From: Acidobacteriaceae bacterium
GTDB taxonomy: Bacteria; Acidobacteriota; Terriglobia; Terriglobales; Acidobacteriaceae
Assembly: GCA_003142935.1 (NCBI GenBank)
Contig: PLOG01000217.1
Span: 43,834 to 91,474 of the forward strand
Length of the DNA stretch: 47,641 bases
Direction of reading: 5' to 3'
Shown here: positions 3,001 to 45,861 of the stretch, piece after piece
Layout of the letters: each line of letters opens with the position of its first letter
How positions within the stretch are numbered: the stretch's first letter is position 1
Program-made: the position numbers and the translations under genes
Notes under the pieces: model-generated
What the model was told of the DNA's origin: nothing
What the model saw: only the letters and a program-made list of their open reading frames with translations
The model's database searches: none

Positions 3001-4908
3001 TCGTTCTGCACGATCCAGGTGACGTTTACGCCCAGCGCGGCCGGAAGCCGCACCGGCCTGATGACCATCGGCGTCAACGTGGCTGGCGGGCAATTGGTGG
3101 TGGATATGAGCGGCGCCGGGGCTGCGGCGGGCGTGGTCAGCCTGACTCCCGGTAGCCTGGATTTCGGGCCGGTGGGGGTGGGTTCCACATCCGCGCCTCT
3201 CCAGGTTGAGGCCAGCAACAACAATCCGACCACGGCGGTTCCGATCAGCGGAGTTACCATTACTTCTCCCTTTACGATTTCGAGCAACTCGTGCGGGACA
3301 ACCACGCTAGCGGCAAACACCAGTTGCCAGGTGATGGTGACGTTTACGCCCGCGCAAGCCGGGGCGGCGACAGGCACGCTGACGTTTACCGATGGCGGCG
3401 GAACTCAGACGGTGGCGCTGGCCGGGACCGGGGCCGCACCGGCGACCGACGGCCTGAATCCGACGTCGTTGAGTTTTCCAACCACGCCGACGGGCACGCT
3501 GTCCGCGGCACAAACCGTTCAGCTGACGAACGCGGGGAACGAGGTGCTGACCTCGATCGGCGTGTCGGTGAGCGGAGCCTTTCAGACTTCCAACAACTGC
3601 GGAACGCAACTGACCGGGCCCGCGGCCTGCACTATCAGCGTGATCTTTGCACCAACTCAGTCGGGGAGCCAATCCGGCACCCTCACCGTTTCCGACGCTC
3701 TGCGCACGCAGACAGTGGCGCTTACCGGCACCGGCGTTACCGCGGCGGCTTTCGGCGTCAACCCTTCCAGTTTGAGTTTCTCGACGCAGCAGCCCGGAGT
3801 GCCGAGTGCGCCGCAGACGGTGACGGTGACGAACACCGGCGGAGCGGCGATGGCCAACGTTGGGTTTCAGATCACGGGCCCGGCGGCAGCCAGCTATTCG
3901 ATCGGTATTACCACCTGCGGAACTACCCTGAACGGCGGTGGCAGTTGCACAGTGCAGGTGATTTTTACCCCGCCGGCGACTGGAGCCACTGCCGCGACGC
4001 TTACGATTTCCTCTTCGACGCTTGGCGTGACGCCGGCCTCGGTGTCGCTCAACGGTTCCGGCCAGGGATCGGGCGGGTTGGGCGCCAACCCCGCGCTGTT
4101 GACCTTTCCCGAAGTGGGGGTAGGTCAATCGAGCGCCGCACTGCCAGTGACGATCGGCAATACCGGCAACATTGCAATCGGGTCGCTGGCGCTTGTGGTC
4201 AGCGGCCCGTTTCAACTGACGACGAACACCTGCGCCGCCAGCCTCGCCGCCGGAGCAAGCTGCGGCGCGACAGTCACGTTTCAGCCCATTGCCAGCGGGG
4301 CCGCGACAGGAGCGTTGACGGTGAGCTCAAGCGCCGCGGCTTCCGCAGCCAGCGTCGCGCTGTCGGGAACGGGCTTTGATTTTACGGTCGCAATCTCTGG
4401 ATCGAGCAGCATTTCCGTGGCAGCCGGCCAGACCGCTAACTATACGGTGACGATCACTCCTGCCAGCGGAGCCAAAGGGAGCTTCACTTACACCTGCGGC
4501 ACGCTTCCGGCCAATGCGCTGTGCCTGTTCAGCCCCGCCACGACGACGGTGAGCGCCGGCTCCACGGGAAGCGTGACAGTTCAGATTTCGACCGGGGCGC
4601 CCGGTTCGGCGCGCATCGAGAGCCCGGCTGGCTGGCGCATGATTCCAATGGTCTGCGGGCTGCTGCTGTTGCCGCTGGCGTTGGGGCGTCGCCGGAAAGC
4701 GCTCGTCAAAGCGCTCTTCCCGATCCTGCTGATGGCAGTAGTTTCGGCGGGCGTCTCCAGTTGCACCAGTTCAGGCGCGGGACTAAAACAGGGATACGGC
4801 GGCTCAGGCGGCGGCTCCGCTACCCCCACTGGAACCTACACGATTCCGGTCACCTTTACTTCAACCGGTATCTCCCACGCGGTAACCGTAACTTTGATAG
4901 TGGATTGA
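1..4908 (+). CDS. large secreted beta-repeat protein (BNR-like plus choice-of-anchor-D domains), 5' end open
   Basis: The reading frame is open to the left edge, so the TTG at 40 in the ORF track is probably not the true start. The N-terminus has an arginine pair and then a hydrophobic, signal-like run ending near PATAQA. Residues of about 90-900 carry BNR/sortilin-type motifs such as STDGGNSW, SSDGGATW and TTDGGAHW, which suggest a beta-propeller. Five repeats of about 100 residues follow, beginning PTALTF, PGSLDF, PTSLSF, PSSLSF and PALLTF; these are ASH/choice-of-anchor-D type Ig-like domains. An Ig-like segment is then interrupted by a hydrophobic stretch with basic residues (LLLLPLALGRRRK) and a second hydrophobic stretch ending SAGVSSC, after which a beta-strand-like tail closes the protein. 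Likely surface or extracellular; no enzymatic role can be assigned. Confidence 0.85.
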   Translation, partial: ALAVLRRAIPRATLVLTTLVLATLVPSALVVAAARPATAQAAGAVQQAQARAQQTNLPPRVIQAQRFLAERGWTSAHGLAARHSVSKVAAGQTRMAGIEAATAETATWQPLGPTAVQTPGFGLVTGRVAAVALDPSDATGNHLYLGTTGGGVWVAQNAGTSNASSVVFTPLTDTLAALGGAADASISIGALTVQPGGTRVILAGTGDPNDALDSYYGGGILRSTDGGNSWTLISATDDAEQGLGAQNFSFAGEGFAGFAWSTVNPQVVVAAVSQAYEGTLVNAEQTGNSYEGLYYSSDGGATWHLATVTDSSGNYVQGPLAAFAAPDGNAATSVVWNPVRQLFVAAVRFHGYYQSPDGVTWTRMTAQPGAGLGTALCPTSPGSTGSIACPIYRGTLAVNPSTGDTFAWTVDGNDQDQGLWQDQCNVSGAACSNQTMTFAQNWSTAALETNTSLGAATIADGSYNLALAAVPAGLGAGQDTLLLAGANDLWKCSLALGCAWRNTTNSTSCMSAQVGEYQHALAWNTANPLEVFVGNDSGLWRSTDAVGESGQVCSAADSSHFQNLNGSLGSLAEVVSISGIVTTPYTMMAGLGVNGTAGVKSISATIDWPQILGGYGGPVAIDPLNSTNWYVNNQSGVSIYLCAQSPECTAANFGAAPVVSDADVGGDGDTMPTPAPFLVDAIDPSQLLVGTCRVWRGPADGSGWSATNAISPILDNGATSGACSGDSLIRSMDVLALPGDVEQVYLGMYGSASGGGNLAGHVLGATINPASGALPVWQDLTLGPVTNDTDPLNKVGMDISSIYIDSHDTTGNTVYVTVEGAASSTENARVAYRTTDGGAHWSDLTANLPETPVSSIVVDPQDANTVYIATDEGVYFTTQVGSCAVAASNCWSVFGAGLPEAPVVALSAAPISAVSPVLVAATYGRGIWQTPLSTAGTSLTTAAASPTALTFASQALGTASSAQTVTLQNTGATVLTVTTIAMSGDFSETDNCVNSSVAVGSFCTIQVTFTPSAAGSRTGLMTIGVNVAGGQLVVDMSGAGAAAGVVSLTPGSLDFGPVGVGSTSAPLQVEASNNNPTTAVPISGVTITSPFTISSNSCGTTTLAANTSCQVMVTFTPAQAGAATGTLTFTDGGGTQTVALAGTGAAPATDGLNPTSLSFPTTPTGTLSAAQTVQLTNAGNEVLTSIGVSVSGAFQTSNNCGTQLTGPAACTISVIFAPTQSGSQSGTLTVSDALRTQTVALTGTGVTAAAFGVNPSSLSFSTQQPGVPSAPQTVTVTNTGGAAMANVGFQITGPAAASYSIGITTCGTTLNGGGSCTVQVIFTPPATGATAATLTISSSTLGVTPASVSLNGSGQGSGGLGANPALLTFPEVGVGQSSAALPVTIGNTGNIAIGSLALVVSGPFQLTTNTCAASLAAGASCGATVTFQPIASGAATGALTVSSSAAASAASVALSGTGFDFTVAISGSSSISVAAGQTANYTVTITPASGAKGSFTYTCGTLPANALCLFSPATTTVSAGSTGSVTVQISTGAPGSARIESPAGWRMIPMVCGLLLLPLALGRRRKALVKALFPILLMAVVSAGVSSCTSSGAGLKQGYGGSGGGSATPTGTYTIPVTFTSTGISHAVTVTLIVD
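35..79 (+). repeat. three tandem 15-bp in-frame repeats in the signal region
   Basis: The unit CAACATTGGTTCTGA occurs three times with minor changes. It keeps the reading frame and codes for a repeated five-residue hydrophobic unit (TLVLT/TLVLA) in the presumed signal-peptide core of the large secreted protein. Confidence 0.8.
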
Positions 4909-42213: not shown

Positions 42214-42242
42214 TTGTGCAGACTCCGGCTTTTTGCTACTAT
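42214..42242 (+). promoter_or_regulatory. predicted promoter of the cysDNH operon leader
   Basis: TTGTGC, a 17-base spacer, then TACTAT. Transcription would begin near 42249, a few bases before the leader-peptide ATG at 42253. Confidence 0.5.
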
Positions 42243-42252
42243 GGTGAGACAC

Positions 42253-42321
42253 ATGAACCGCGAAACCCAACGCCGCTCTTGTTGTTGCCTGTCGAACATC
42301 TTCGACGGGTGTCCCCGCTAG
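42253..42321 (+). CDS. polycysteine leader peptide of the cysD operon
   Basis: A 22-codon ORF, too short for the track, ending RRSCCCLSNIFDGCPR. The Cys codons are TGT TGT TGC and later TGT. In-frame ATG 42241 and GTG 42244 are possible earlier starts, but the promoter -10 box overlaps the first. The last Cys codon lies in ACGGGTGT (42305-42312), which can pair perfectly with ACACCCGT (42355-42362), bridging the stop codon. It precedes cysD by 115 bases. The resemblance to cysteine-responsive leader ORFs known in mycobacteria supports a role in attenuation. Confidence 0.65.
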   Translation: MNRETQRRSCCCLSNIFDGCPR

Positions 42322-42399
42322 TCTCTGATCCCAAGCACAATCGATTCAGAAGACACACCCGTAGCTGACATGCCGGGCGAGTCTTCACGTTGCACCGGC
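42305..42399 (+). promoter_or_regulatory. leader stem-loops between the Cys peptide and cysD
   Basis: ACGGGTGT/ACACCCGT (8 bp) includes the final Cys codon of the leader; a second stem GCCGG/CCGGC lies at 42372-42399. No T-run follows either, so control through translation or Rho is more likely than an intrinsic terminator. Confidence 0.45.
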
Positions 42400-42436
42400 C
42401 TTCAGCATTCACCTTCAAGTTAAATGAGGTCATGCA

Positions 42437-43393
42437 ATGCCGGCAGCCGAAACACAAACAGGTCCACAATCGCCGCACGTCACAGGCAACGCGCCGCCGC
42501 GGCTGAGTCACCTGCGCCTGCTTGAAGCCGAGAGCATCCACATCCTGCGCGAGGTCGCCTCGGAGTTTGAGCGGCCGGTGATGCTCTACTCCGTCGGCAA
42601 GGACTCGTCGGTGATGCTGCGGTTGGCGCAGAAGGCTTTTTATCCTGCGCCGATTCCTTTTCCGCTGCTGCATGTCGACACCGGATTCAAGTTTGCGGAG
42701 ATGCTGACATTCCGCGACGAGATGGCCCGCTCCATCGGCGCGGAGTTGCTGGTGTGGCGCAATGAACAGGCCATAGCCGCGGGGACAAATCCGATTGCGC
42801 TCGATACCAAACGCTGCTGCGGACTGCTGAAGACGCAGGCGCTGTTGGATGCGTTGCGGCACTACAACTTTGACGCCGCTTTCGGTGGCGCGCGCCGCGA
42901 CGAGGAGAAGTCGCGCGCCAAGGAGCGCATCTACTCGTTCCGCGACAGCGCGGGGCAGTGGGACCCGAAGAATCAACGTCCCGAGTTGTGGAACCTCTAC
43001 AACGCGCGCATCCATCCCGGCGAAAGCATTCGCGTCTTCCCGCTCTCCAACTGGACGGAGATGGATGTTTGGCAATACATCCACGAAGAGAAGATTCCGG
43101 TGGTCGATCTCTACTTTGCGAAGGAGCGGCCAATGTATGTCCGCGGCGATGAACTGCTGCCCATCGAGCAATCTTTTGTAGCGCGCCTCGGCGAGCAGCC
43201 GCAGATGGTGAAGTCGCGGCTGCGTTCGCTGGGCTGCAGCCCGTGCACGGGTGCTATCCGTTCCGATGCGGAGACCATTCCCGCGATTATCTCGGAGCTG
43301 ATTTCGTTCCGCTCTTCCGAGCGCGCCAACCGCGCCATCGACCACGATCAGGAAGGGTCAATGGAGATCAAGAAGCGGGAGGGATATTTCTAG
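42437..43393 (+). CDS. cysD: sulfate adenylyltransferase subunit 2
   Basis: CysD is the catalytic ATP-PPi-lyase subunit that makes APS from sulfate and ATP. The 318-residue product has the PP-loop [14 protein letters not shown], the segment [14 protein letters not shown] and the conserved [20 protein letters not shown], and ends in the usual [15 protein letters not shown] is 7 bases before the ATG. cysN follows with no gap (its ATG directly after the stop). Expression is probably controlled by the upstream Cys-rich leader. Confidence 0.96.
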
Positions 43394-45163
43394 ATGTCGA
43401 TGCTGGCGGCTCCCACATTCTCCATTGACGAGTTTCTGCAGCAGGAGCGCGAGAAGGACCTGCTGCGCTTCTCGACAGCCGGCAGTGTGGACGACGGAAA
43501 GTCCACACTCATCGGGCGGCTGCTTTACGATACGCAATCCGTCTACGAAGACCAGGTGCGCTCGATTGAAGGAAAGGGAACGACCGCGCCGGGACAGATC
43601 GATTTCGCGCTGCTTACGGACGGGCTCCGCGCCGAACGCGAACAGGGCATCACGATCGATGTTGCCTACCGCTATTTCTCCACGGCGCGGCGCAAGTTCA
43701 TCATCGCCGATACGCCCGGCCACGAGCAGTACACGCGAAATATGGCAACCGGCGCGTCGACGGCCGATGCGGCGGTGGTTCTGATCGACGCCAGCAAGGG
43801 AGTGCTGATCCAGTCGCGCCGTCACGCTTACATTGCGTCGCTGCTGCGCGTGCGTCACGTTCTGGTGGCGGTGAACAAGATGGATTTGATCGGCTACGAC
43901 GAAGCGGCCTTCCGCGCCATCGAGGCGGACTTCAGCGCCGTTCTGGATCAGATTGCGGCCGATACCGGCAACCCGGTGGAGCGGATCGTTGTGCCGGTGA
44001 GCGCGCTGAAGGGCGACAACATCGTTCACAAATCGAATGCGATGGATTGGTACAAGGGACCATCGCTGCTGGAGTTGCTGGAGACCGTGCCGCCCTCGGT
44101 CGACACGCGCACTGCGCCGTTTCGATTTCCGGTGCAACGCGTGCTGCGGCCTGACCACACGTTCCGCGGATTTGCAGGGCAGATTGCTTCGGGAACCATT
44201 CGTTCCGGCGATGCGATCACCGTGTTGCCTTCGGGTAGAAGCGCAAGAGTCGAGCGCATTGTTACCTGGGACGGCGATTTGACCGAAGCCATTGCGCCGC
44301 TTTCCGTCACGCTGGTGCTCGATCGAGAACTCGATATCAGCCGCGGCGATCTGGTTGTTTCTTCCGAGACTCCGGCGACGGTTTCGAAGAGCGCGAAGGC
44401 CGCGCTGGTGTGGATGGATCAAAGGCCGCTTGAGCTGCATCGCCGCTATCTGCTGAAGCACACCAGCCAGACGGTGCCTGTGTTCGTTACCTCCATCGGT
44501 CACCGCACCGACCTGGGCACGTTGAATCACGAGCCGGCGCGAACGCTGCACATGAACGACATCGGCTCTGTGACCGTGAACCTGCTGCGGCCCATCGCGC
44601 TCGATGCTTATGAAGAAAACCGCAGCACCGGCGCCTTTATTTTGGTTGACGCAGAGACCAACGGGACGGTTGCGGCGGGCATGATTTCCGCGGCGTACAG
44701 CGAGACGGCAGCGGGTGCGCCGTTGCTCGCCGACGCGTGGGGCCCTTTGACGGCCGGGGAAAAGGAGGCGCGTTGGGGGCATCGCGGCGCGATTCTCGAA
44801 CTGAAAGGACCGAAGGAATTGGTGGACGCGATTGAACGCTCGCTGTTTGCGGCCGGCGCTGTTCCGGTTCGCATCGAGGCCGGCGACGATGCCTTCGTGC
44901 TTCATCCGAGCCTGCTGGAGATTGCGACCGCATTGCAGGTGCGGGCCGGGCTGCTGGCGCTGGTTGTCGACGCGAACGAAGCCAGTACGCTGATTGCGCG
45001 AATTGAAGGCCGGGAGGCGATTGTGAATGCGGCTGACATGCGCGATGCGGACGATACCGACGATGCGAACGATGCCAGGCGAGCAGGCAAGGCCGTCGCG
45101 GCCGTTCACCAGCTGCTGCGCGATGCGGGAGTTTTTATCTCTTCGGAAATGGCGGGGTTGTGA
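43394..45163 (+). CDS. cysN: sulfate adenylyltransferase subunit 1 with degenerate APS-kinase-like tail
   Basis: CysN is the GTPase that drives APS synthesis by CysD. GTPase motifs are intact: GSVDDGKSTLIGRLL, DTPGHEQYTRNM and NKMDLIGY, followed by EF-Tu-like beta domains to about residue 440. The last 140 residues begin EARWGHRGAILELKGPKELV, aligning in position and pattern with the CysC domain of CysNC fusions, but the P-loop GLSGSGKST is replaced by LKGPKEL, and the rest is shortened and ends in an Asp-rich loop. APS kinase activity is therefore unlikely. Its stop overlaps the cysH start (TGATG). Product 589 residues. Confidence 0.93.
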   Translation: MSMLAAPTFSIDEFLQQEREKDLLRFSTAGSVDDGKSTLIGRLLYDTQSVYEDQVRSIEGKGTTAPGQIDFALLTDGLRAEREQGITIDVAYRYFSTARRKFIIADTPGHEQYTRNMATGASTADAAVVLIDASKGVLIQSRRHAYIASLLRVRHVLVAVNKMDLIGYDEAAFRAIEADFSAVLDQIAADTGNPVERIVVPVSALKGDNIVHKSNAMDWYKGPSLLELLETVPPSVDTRTAPFRFPVQRVLRPDHTFRGFAGQIASGTIRSGDAITVLPSGRSARVERIVTWDGDLTEAIAPLSVTLVLDRELDISRGDLVVSSETPATVSKSAKAALVWMDQRPLELHRRYLLKHTSQTVPVFVTSIGHRTDLGTLNHEPARTLHMNDIGSVTVNLLRPIALDAYEENRSTGAFILVDAETNGTVAAGMISAAYSETAAGAPLLADAWGPLTAGEKEARWGHRGAILELKGPKELVDAIERSLFAAGAVPVRIEAGDDAFVLHPSLLEIATALQVRAGLLALVVDANEASTLIARIEGREAIVNAADMRDADDTDDANDARRAGKAVAAVHQLLRDAGVFISSEMAGL

Positions 45164-45861
45164 TGAGCACAGTTGAGATCAATTCAGAAGTGAACGCGAA
45201 GCTGGAGCATGTGCGCGCCACGCTCGCTCGGGAGATCAAGGGCAAAGGGGACGTGTGCCTCACTTGCAGCTTTCAAGCCGAGGACGTGCTGCTGACAAAG
45301 CTCGGGATCGCGCTCGATCCAGGGGTTCCGATTCTCTTTCTCGATACCGGCTATCACTTCAAAGAGACCTATGAGTATCGGGATCGGATTGCGCGCGAGT
45401 GGGGTCTGAACCTGATCAACCTGCTGCCGGAAAAGACAGTGGCCGAACAGGAGGCAGAGTTTGGCTTGCTCTATCAGACCGCGCCGGACCGTTGCTGCGG
45501 GCTGCGCAAGGTAGAGCCGCTGTTCAAGGCGGTTGCAAATTATCGCGTATGGCTTACCGGGCTGCGCCGGGAGCAGGCAAAGAGCCGCGCGGCACTTGAG
45601 GAATCGGCGATGTTTGCGTTGCCGGGGGGCAAGCAGGTGCTGAAACTTGCGCCGCTGGCCGAGTGGACCACGCGCGATGTGTGGTATGCGTGCGAGCAGT
45701 TGTCGATTCCGCTGCTGCCGCTTTACGAGCGCGGCTACTCTTCGATCGGATGCGAGCCTTGCACGACTCTTCCACTCGACCCGAACGATCCACGCTCGGG
45801 GCGCTGGGCCGGGCGCAAAGTGGAGTGCGGAATTCACATTCAGGCTGCGCCGGCACAGTAA
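45163..45861 (+). CDS. cysH: phosphoadenylyl/adenylyl-sulfate reductase, APS type
   Basis: CysH reduces activated sulfate to sulfite. ATG 45163 overlaps the cysN stop. The 232-residue product has a PP-loop-like start (VCLTCSFQAEDVLL), the LDTGYHFKETYEYRD segment, and two cysteine motifs, DRCCGLRKVEPL and GCEPC, that bind the [4Fe-4S] cluster of APS reductases; PAPS-type enzymes lack them. The catalytic Cys is in KVECGIH near the end. This fits direct reduction of APS, in line with the non-functional kinase tail of CysN. Confidence 0.94.
   Translation: MSTVEINSEVNAKLEHVRATLAREIKGKGDVCLTCSFQAEDVLLTKLGIALDPGVPILFLDTGYHFKETYEYRDRIAREWGLNLINLLPEKTVAEQEAEFGLLYQTAPDRCCGLRKVEPLFKAVANYRVWLTGLRREQAKSRAALEESAMFALPGGKQVLKLAPLAEWTTRDVWYACEQLSIPLLPLYERGYSSIGCEPCTTLPLDPNDPRSGRWAGRKVECGIHIQAAPAQ

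Follow-up and report, generated by a model that had tools for sequence, protein, structure and literature searches.

A Cys-rich leader ORF upstream of cysDNH

The window analyzed here, a stretch of 47,641 nucleotides from an Acidobacteriaceae bacterium (contig PLOG01000217.1), carries on its forward strand a sulfate assimilation operon whose three genes were assigned by NCBIfam matches. These are cysD, encoding sulfate adenylyltransferase subunit 2 (42437-43393, TIGR02039), cysN, encoding subunit 1 with a C-terminal extension (43394-45163, TIGR02034), and cysH, encoding a (P)APS reductase (45160-45861, NF002537). CysN is 589 aa long, about 150 aa more than the subunit 1 model, and its extension fits the bifunctional CysN/CysC model only partly. 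A 255-aa open reading frame (ORF) after cysH has by eye the look of a TauE/SafE-type permease and gave no NCBIfam match.

Upstream of cysD on the same strand lies a short ORF of 22 codons (MNRETQRRSCCCLSNIFDGCPR*, 42253-42321), recognized from its sequence and its conservation in relatives. It starts with ATG at 42253 and ends with TAG at 42319-42321, 115 nt before the cysD start. Cys is encoded at codons 10 (TGT), 11 (TGT), 12 (TGC) and 20 (TGT), and the adjacent TGT TGT pair of codons 10-11 (42280-42285) is the predicted stall site. The leader core TGTTGTYGCCTGTCGANNNNNTTCGACGGGTGY is present in one copy in the window and in none of the shuffled sequences, even allowing 3 mismatches. An NCBIfam HMM search with the leader peptide returned no matching family, and an Rfam covariance-model search at gathering and relaxed thresholds yielded no relevant match (T-box, SAM or other riboswitches).

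The promoter-like sequence noted earlier in front of the ORF was recovered as a putative promoter (42214-42242, forward strand) composed of a TTGTGC -35 element (42214-42219), a 17-nt spacer and a TG-extended -10 box TACTAT (42237-42242), with TTG and TGyTAcnAT kept in relatives. The leader ATG is located 10 nt past the -10 box, and this spacing implies that the mRNA probably starts 2-4 nt 5' of the ATG. The original prediction had compared the ORF to leaderless ones; it is predicted here to be near-leaderless, with a 5' UTR of probably 2-4 nt.

Conservation of the leader among close relatives

Relatives were collected by their CysD, 30 loci at first and then more from the genus and family. 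Because CysD and not the leader served as query, the resulting sample of loci is unbiased for leaders. Leaders of the window's type, referred to as type A, comprised 54-55 sequences. An alignment of cysD upstream regions had been proposed as a check on the original prediction, and it shows the Cys codons and the frame kept while flanking codons vary: TGT TGT is invariant (51/51), while codons 2-9, 21 and 22 differ among relatives. The nearest ATG is 27 nt 5' of TGT TGT in 47 of 55 sequences and the stop 39 nt after the start of TGT TGT in 51 of 55; the distance from the stop to the downstream RNA segment termed region 2 (see below) is free, ranging from 30 to 56 nt. The expected conservation of the whole Cys run holds for codons 10-11 and fails for the third, where half of the relatives have Arg instead. 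At codon 12, CGC (Arg) is as frequent as TGC (Cys), an alternation explained by the location of the triplet in RNA hairpin 0:1, described below.

In a collection of 84,980 species, the exact type A core was found in 35 contigs, all acidobacterial and labeled mostly Acidobacteriaceae and in some cases Terracidiphilus. Thirty-three copies directly precede cysD; of the other two, the first sits at the end of a contig and the second (L210) precedes cysH. At the latter locus, from position 4580 onward, a type A leader is retained before a cysD stub and cysH, and cysD was not found in the genome. The core is single copy per genome with the exception of genome G020, where a second, partly degenerate type A leader (L245, around position 289) lies upstream of a porin-like gene and could be a relic or stem from contamination of the assembly by a foreign contig. 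A phylum-wide search with the degenerate pattern RR-S-CCC-L-S gave mostly noise, the reversed control matching about as often.

Cys leaders across acidobacterial cysD loci

A leader was scored at cysD when an ATG-started ORF of 10-35 codons containing CC and at least 3 Cys was located no more than 330 nt upstream. Such leaders are present in 120 of 146 cysD loci, compared to 1-5 in dinucleotide shuffles and 19 on the reverse strand. Judged from sequence, Cys leaders before cysD are widespread in Acidobacteriota. The 26 upstream regions without a leader by this definition include several from family members in which cysD is single copy, and also an assembly gap (L062). No Cys leader was scored before cysD of a sister family (L026-L030), nor at six second-copy cysD loci (L102, L103, L105-L108) in genomes whose first copy has one.

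Leader peptides of other clades differ (CCACCCAPRRTMG, QLRCCCPFNVEQACRLTR, CCCSNDACRRGCEHCR, ACCCCRMLPCPCARCCR and others), and outside type A they have little in common except Cys. The preference for TGT in the leader over TGC in the genes, first noticed in the window, generalizes: Cys codons are 498 TGT to 160 TGC in all leaders (76% TGT) versus 8 to 197 in cysD genes (4% TGT). In 81% of the 120 leaders the ORF follows a good -10 box at a distance of 3-14 nt, versus 5% at random positions; the box is usually 6-12 nt from the ATG, with a mode of 10 (6-8 nt in type B), and an SD-like sequence precedes the leader ORF in only 13 of the 120. The strongest evidence that selection acts on the Cys codons themselves, and not on one RNA motif, is that Cys density, TGT bias and -10 spacing are common to unrelated types. 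Short ORFs are common and could in principle arise by chance in a GC-rich divergent promoter region. The probability of such an origin is here close to nil, as it is refuted by conservation; the 22-codon Cys ORF before cysD is real, its conservation, position and codon bias being far above those of shuffles.

At cysD, type B and type D leaders carry intrinsic terminators (L019-L022, L090-L101, L150-L172), which suggests that cysD is controlled by transcription attenuation in these sister clades. Among type B leaders, L020 alone gave a clear antitermination fold. AGACTCA, located behind the stop codon in type B leaders such as L020, is the complement of the 5' end ATGAGTCT; pairing of the two may also govern whether the near-leaderless start is accessible.

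A second Cys leader upstream of sulfite reductase

The source genome contains another near-leaderless Cys leader ORF (L249, G000:C55), ATGGACGGTAGGACTTGTTGTCGCTTCTGTACGCTGCTGTGCGCGCACAGGTGA (MDGRTCCRFCTLLCAHR), about 105 nt before the start of sulfite reductase. TACCAT is located about 7 nt before its ATG and an intrinsic terminator, CCCGCGATACAGCCTAGCTGCCGCGGGTTTTCTTTT, follows the ORF; terminators of this form are also seen at cysD in types B and D. Within the genus, 27 of 30 sulfite reductase loci (L260-L289) have a Cys leader, with 0-1 in mononucleotide shuffles, and the Cys codons number 79 TGT and 18 TGC in these leaders versus 31 and 278 in the sulfite reductase genes. Elsewhere in the source genome, the PALP (cysK-like) genes examined have no Cys leader upstream, and the search for a SulP transporter was negative.

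The cysD leader RNA is a ladder of alternative helices

The leader RNA at cysD consists of a conserved ladder of mutually exclusive helices, designated 0:1, 1:2, 2:3 and 3:4, all on the forward strand. Hairpin 0:1 (42286-42311, RNAalifold consensus) has arms at 42286-42295 and 42302-42311 and extends from the third codon of the Cys run to the last Cys codon. Region 1 (42305-42328, comprising 42305-42312 and 42321-42328) has two alternative partners, regions 0 and 2, and region 2 (42346-42362) can form a helix with either region 1 or region 3. Region 3 (42364-42386), made of GCTGA (42364-42368), GCCGG (42372-42376) and GTCTTC (42381-42386), has region 2 or region 4 as partner; region 4 (42395-42406), with arms CCGGC and TCAGC, pairs with region 3 or, if free, with the area of the cysD Shine-Dalgarno (SD) sequence GAGGTC (42426-42431), itself recognized by sequence and kept in relatives. 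The 8-bp stem said to include the last Cys codon is part of this ladder, formed by ACGGGUGU (42305-42312) and ACACCCGU (42355-42362), and the 1:2 pairing extends further through GUCUCUGA (42321-42328) with UCAG-a-AGAC (42346-42354).

RNAalifold applied to 49 leaders returned hairpin 0:1 (YGCCUGUCG/CGACGGGUG) together with the core of 3:4. Hairpin 0:1 has 97% of cells paired and the 3:4 helices 92-95%; the figures are 90% for 1:2 plus 3:4 and 82% for 0:1 plus 2:3, versus 33-52% for slid controls. The covariation score of 0:1 plus 2:3 was reached by only 8 of 500 shuffles. That of 1:2 plus 3:4 was not above shuffles, these helices being so conserved that they hardly vary. We also compared the pairing energy of each region with its own partner to that with a partner from another species (matched-pair permutation). 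The own partner was lower in energy for 0:1 (z -4.5), 2:3 (z -4.5) and 1:2 (z -2.5), with control pairs at +1.2 to -1.7; 3:4 (z -0.7) and direct pairing of region 4 with the SD (z -1.0) were not above permutation. Neither an intrinsic terminator nor a conserved U-tract was found in type A leaders before cysD.

These helices bear on two further explanations. A riboswitch or protein-bound structured RNA with an incidental ORF would account for their strength and for nucleotides in codons 12-20 that are more conserved than the amino acids demand, but other clades, with unrelated RNA and peptide, still have Cys-rich, TGT-biased, near-leaderless ORFs, the sulfite reductase leaders likewise retain them and Rfam has no relevant match; we regard this explanation as very improbable. 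Alternatively, the peptide itself could cause arrest in response to thiols, redox state or metals, a role suggested by the CC and C-x(n)-C motifs and by LSNIFDGC, which is conserved in type A. That conservation is, however, accounted for by the RNA hairpin, in whose loop the codons vary in amino acid; moreover, peptides outside type A are alike in little but Cys and the targets are sulfur-assimilation genes, which makes an arrest peptide very improbable. Selection on the Cys codons of a leader ORF is the preferred reading, and comparison of sequences bears out the ORF, its Cys codons and their bias, the promoter spacing and the conserved helices.

Predicted effect of ribosome position on folding and SD access

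Folding ensembles were computed for 54 sequences with the RNA under the ribosome masked. Hairpin 0:1 forms with a probability of 0.90 when no ribosome is present. With a ribosome stalled at codon 11 or 12, the probabilities are 0.76 for 1:2, 0.72 for 3:4 and 0.12 for 2:3, and with a ribosome at the stop they become 0 for 1:2, 0.21 for 3:4 and 0.62 for 2:3. The computed cost of SD opening is 4.9 kcal/mol with the ribosome stalled versus 5.8 with it at the stop (55 sequences, Wilcoxon p 5e-5, this and the other p-values being indicative only because relatives are not independent). The cost in the stop state falls to 4.7 with region 2 removed and 5.3 with region 2 shuffled, and pairing of the SD with the upstream stretch increases in that state. 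In an earlier accessibility model with a short 3' context, the difference between stalled and stop states was not clear. In these computations the helices switch with ribosome position and the modeled effect on the SD is modest, about 1 kcal/mol, so that SD exposure as the output is only moderately supported.

The proposed mechanism is as follows. A ribosome would initiate at the ATG beside the mRNA 5' end and translate the leader peptide. With charged tRNA-Cys in short supply, it would stall at TGT-TGT and mask region 0, allowing 1:2 and 3:4 to form and leaving the cysD SD more open (ON). When cysteine is plentiful, it would reach the stop codon and mask region 1; 2:3 would then form, and region 4, once freed, would pair with the SD area so that cysD is poorly translated (OFF). 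Since the stall site is 5' of region 1, stalling would select 1:2 plus 3:4, a parity opposite to that of trp. Starvation would be expected to switch a biosynthetic operon ON, and 3:4 should therefore be the permissive state, which agrees with the missing U-tract and with the SD computation.

The main rival retains the same cysteine-sensing ORF but places the output in transcription, with 2:3 or exposed unstructured RNA letting Rho terminate before cysD. Rho-dependent attenuation has been suggested for actinobacterial Cys leaders that lack a terminator (PMC1262725), and intrinsic terminators do occur in the sulfite reductase and in the type B and D cysD leaders. Against a transcriptional output, type A has no intrinsic terminator or conserved U-tract, and SD opening shifts with ribosome position in a manner dependent on region 2. 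We consider the Rho-based output possible, if doubtful. Attenuation probably acts on translation at cysD and on transcription at sulfite reductase. The cysteine-responsive attenuator originally predicted is supported by Cys-codon and frame conservation, TGT bias, promoter spacing, switching helices and the sulfite reductase leader. We are accordingly quite confident that the cysDNH leader is a cysteine-responsive leader-peptide attenuator; its sensing of tRNA-Cys, its transcription start and its translational output at cysD are what we infer.

Relation to known attenuators

In the work of Canestrari et al. (2020), predicted ribosome stalling reportedly exposes the ribosome-binding site of mycobacterial cysteine operons. 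As in those polycysteine attenuators, the leader described here is a Cys-run short ORF, predicted to be near-leaderless, that forms the first gene of a cysteine operon, has adjacent Cys codons directly upstream of cysteine-metabolism genes and occurs at more than one operon per genome. Unlike them, acidobacterial leaders belong to another phylum and show no apparent peptide similarity, contain the conserved multi-helix switch 0:1/1:2/2:3/3:4 (in type A) and TGT-biased Cys codons, and carry intrinsic terminators before sulfite reductase and, in sister clades, before cysD. Experiments in M. smegmatis published in 2020 demonstrated attenuation by a Cys leader (Canestrari et al., as cited in PMC13236596, PMC9094748 and PMC9031893). 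Cys-run leader peptides without terminators had already been predicted in 2005 for cys operons of Mycobacterium and Propionibacterium and for cbs of Bifidobacterium (PMC1262725); these share with the cysD leader a run of Cys codons in a short ORF before sulfur genes and the absence of an intrinsic terminator, but no conserved terminator-like hairpin was found in them, in contrast to the conserved multi-helix structure seen here.

Trp-type attenuators likewise use alternating RNA segments to read out ribosome position on regulatory codons. At cysD, by contrast, the stall site is 5' of region 1 owing to the extra region 0, stalling favors 3:4 over 2:3, 3:4 lacks a U-tract and no intrinsic terminator separates the leader ORF from cysD. 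Translational attenuation of the ermC type also involves a stalled leader ribosome that rearranges helices and frees the SD, but the signal proposed here is amino-acid supply rather than a drug, and the helix order is different. The best reading is that the acidobacterial leader works like the mycobacterial polycysteine attenuators, but in another phylum and with another RNA switch, one absent from Rfam. As of 2010, almost none of the predicted acidobacterial attenuators had an assigned function (PMC2965389), and 10-19% of genes in three Acidobacteria genomes are predicted to be leaderless (PMC3160421). A literature search covering few subscription journals found no published Cys leader attenuator in Acidobacteria.

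On balance we lean toward a broader view, in which Acidobacteriota have their own family of cysteine attenuators, forming in the genus a two-operon 'ribulon' where one codon-sensing input would act through a five-segment translational switch at cysDNH and through an intrinsic terminator at sulfite reductase. Peptide and RNA would have been replaced between clades, with nothing kept but neighboring Cys codons, mostly TGT, and the near-leaderless start. The leader offers a concrete, testable function for an acidobacterial attenuator, namely sulfur assimilation in abundant soil bacteria, and cysteine attenuation by leader ORFs would thereby reach beyond Actinobacteria. With the cysD and sulfite reductase leaders, two outputs of a single sensor may be compared in a natural setting, and near-leaderless, TGT-rich short ORFs containing CC provide a search rule for further controls of this kind.
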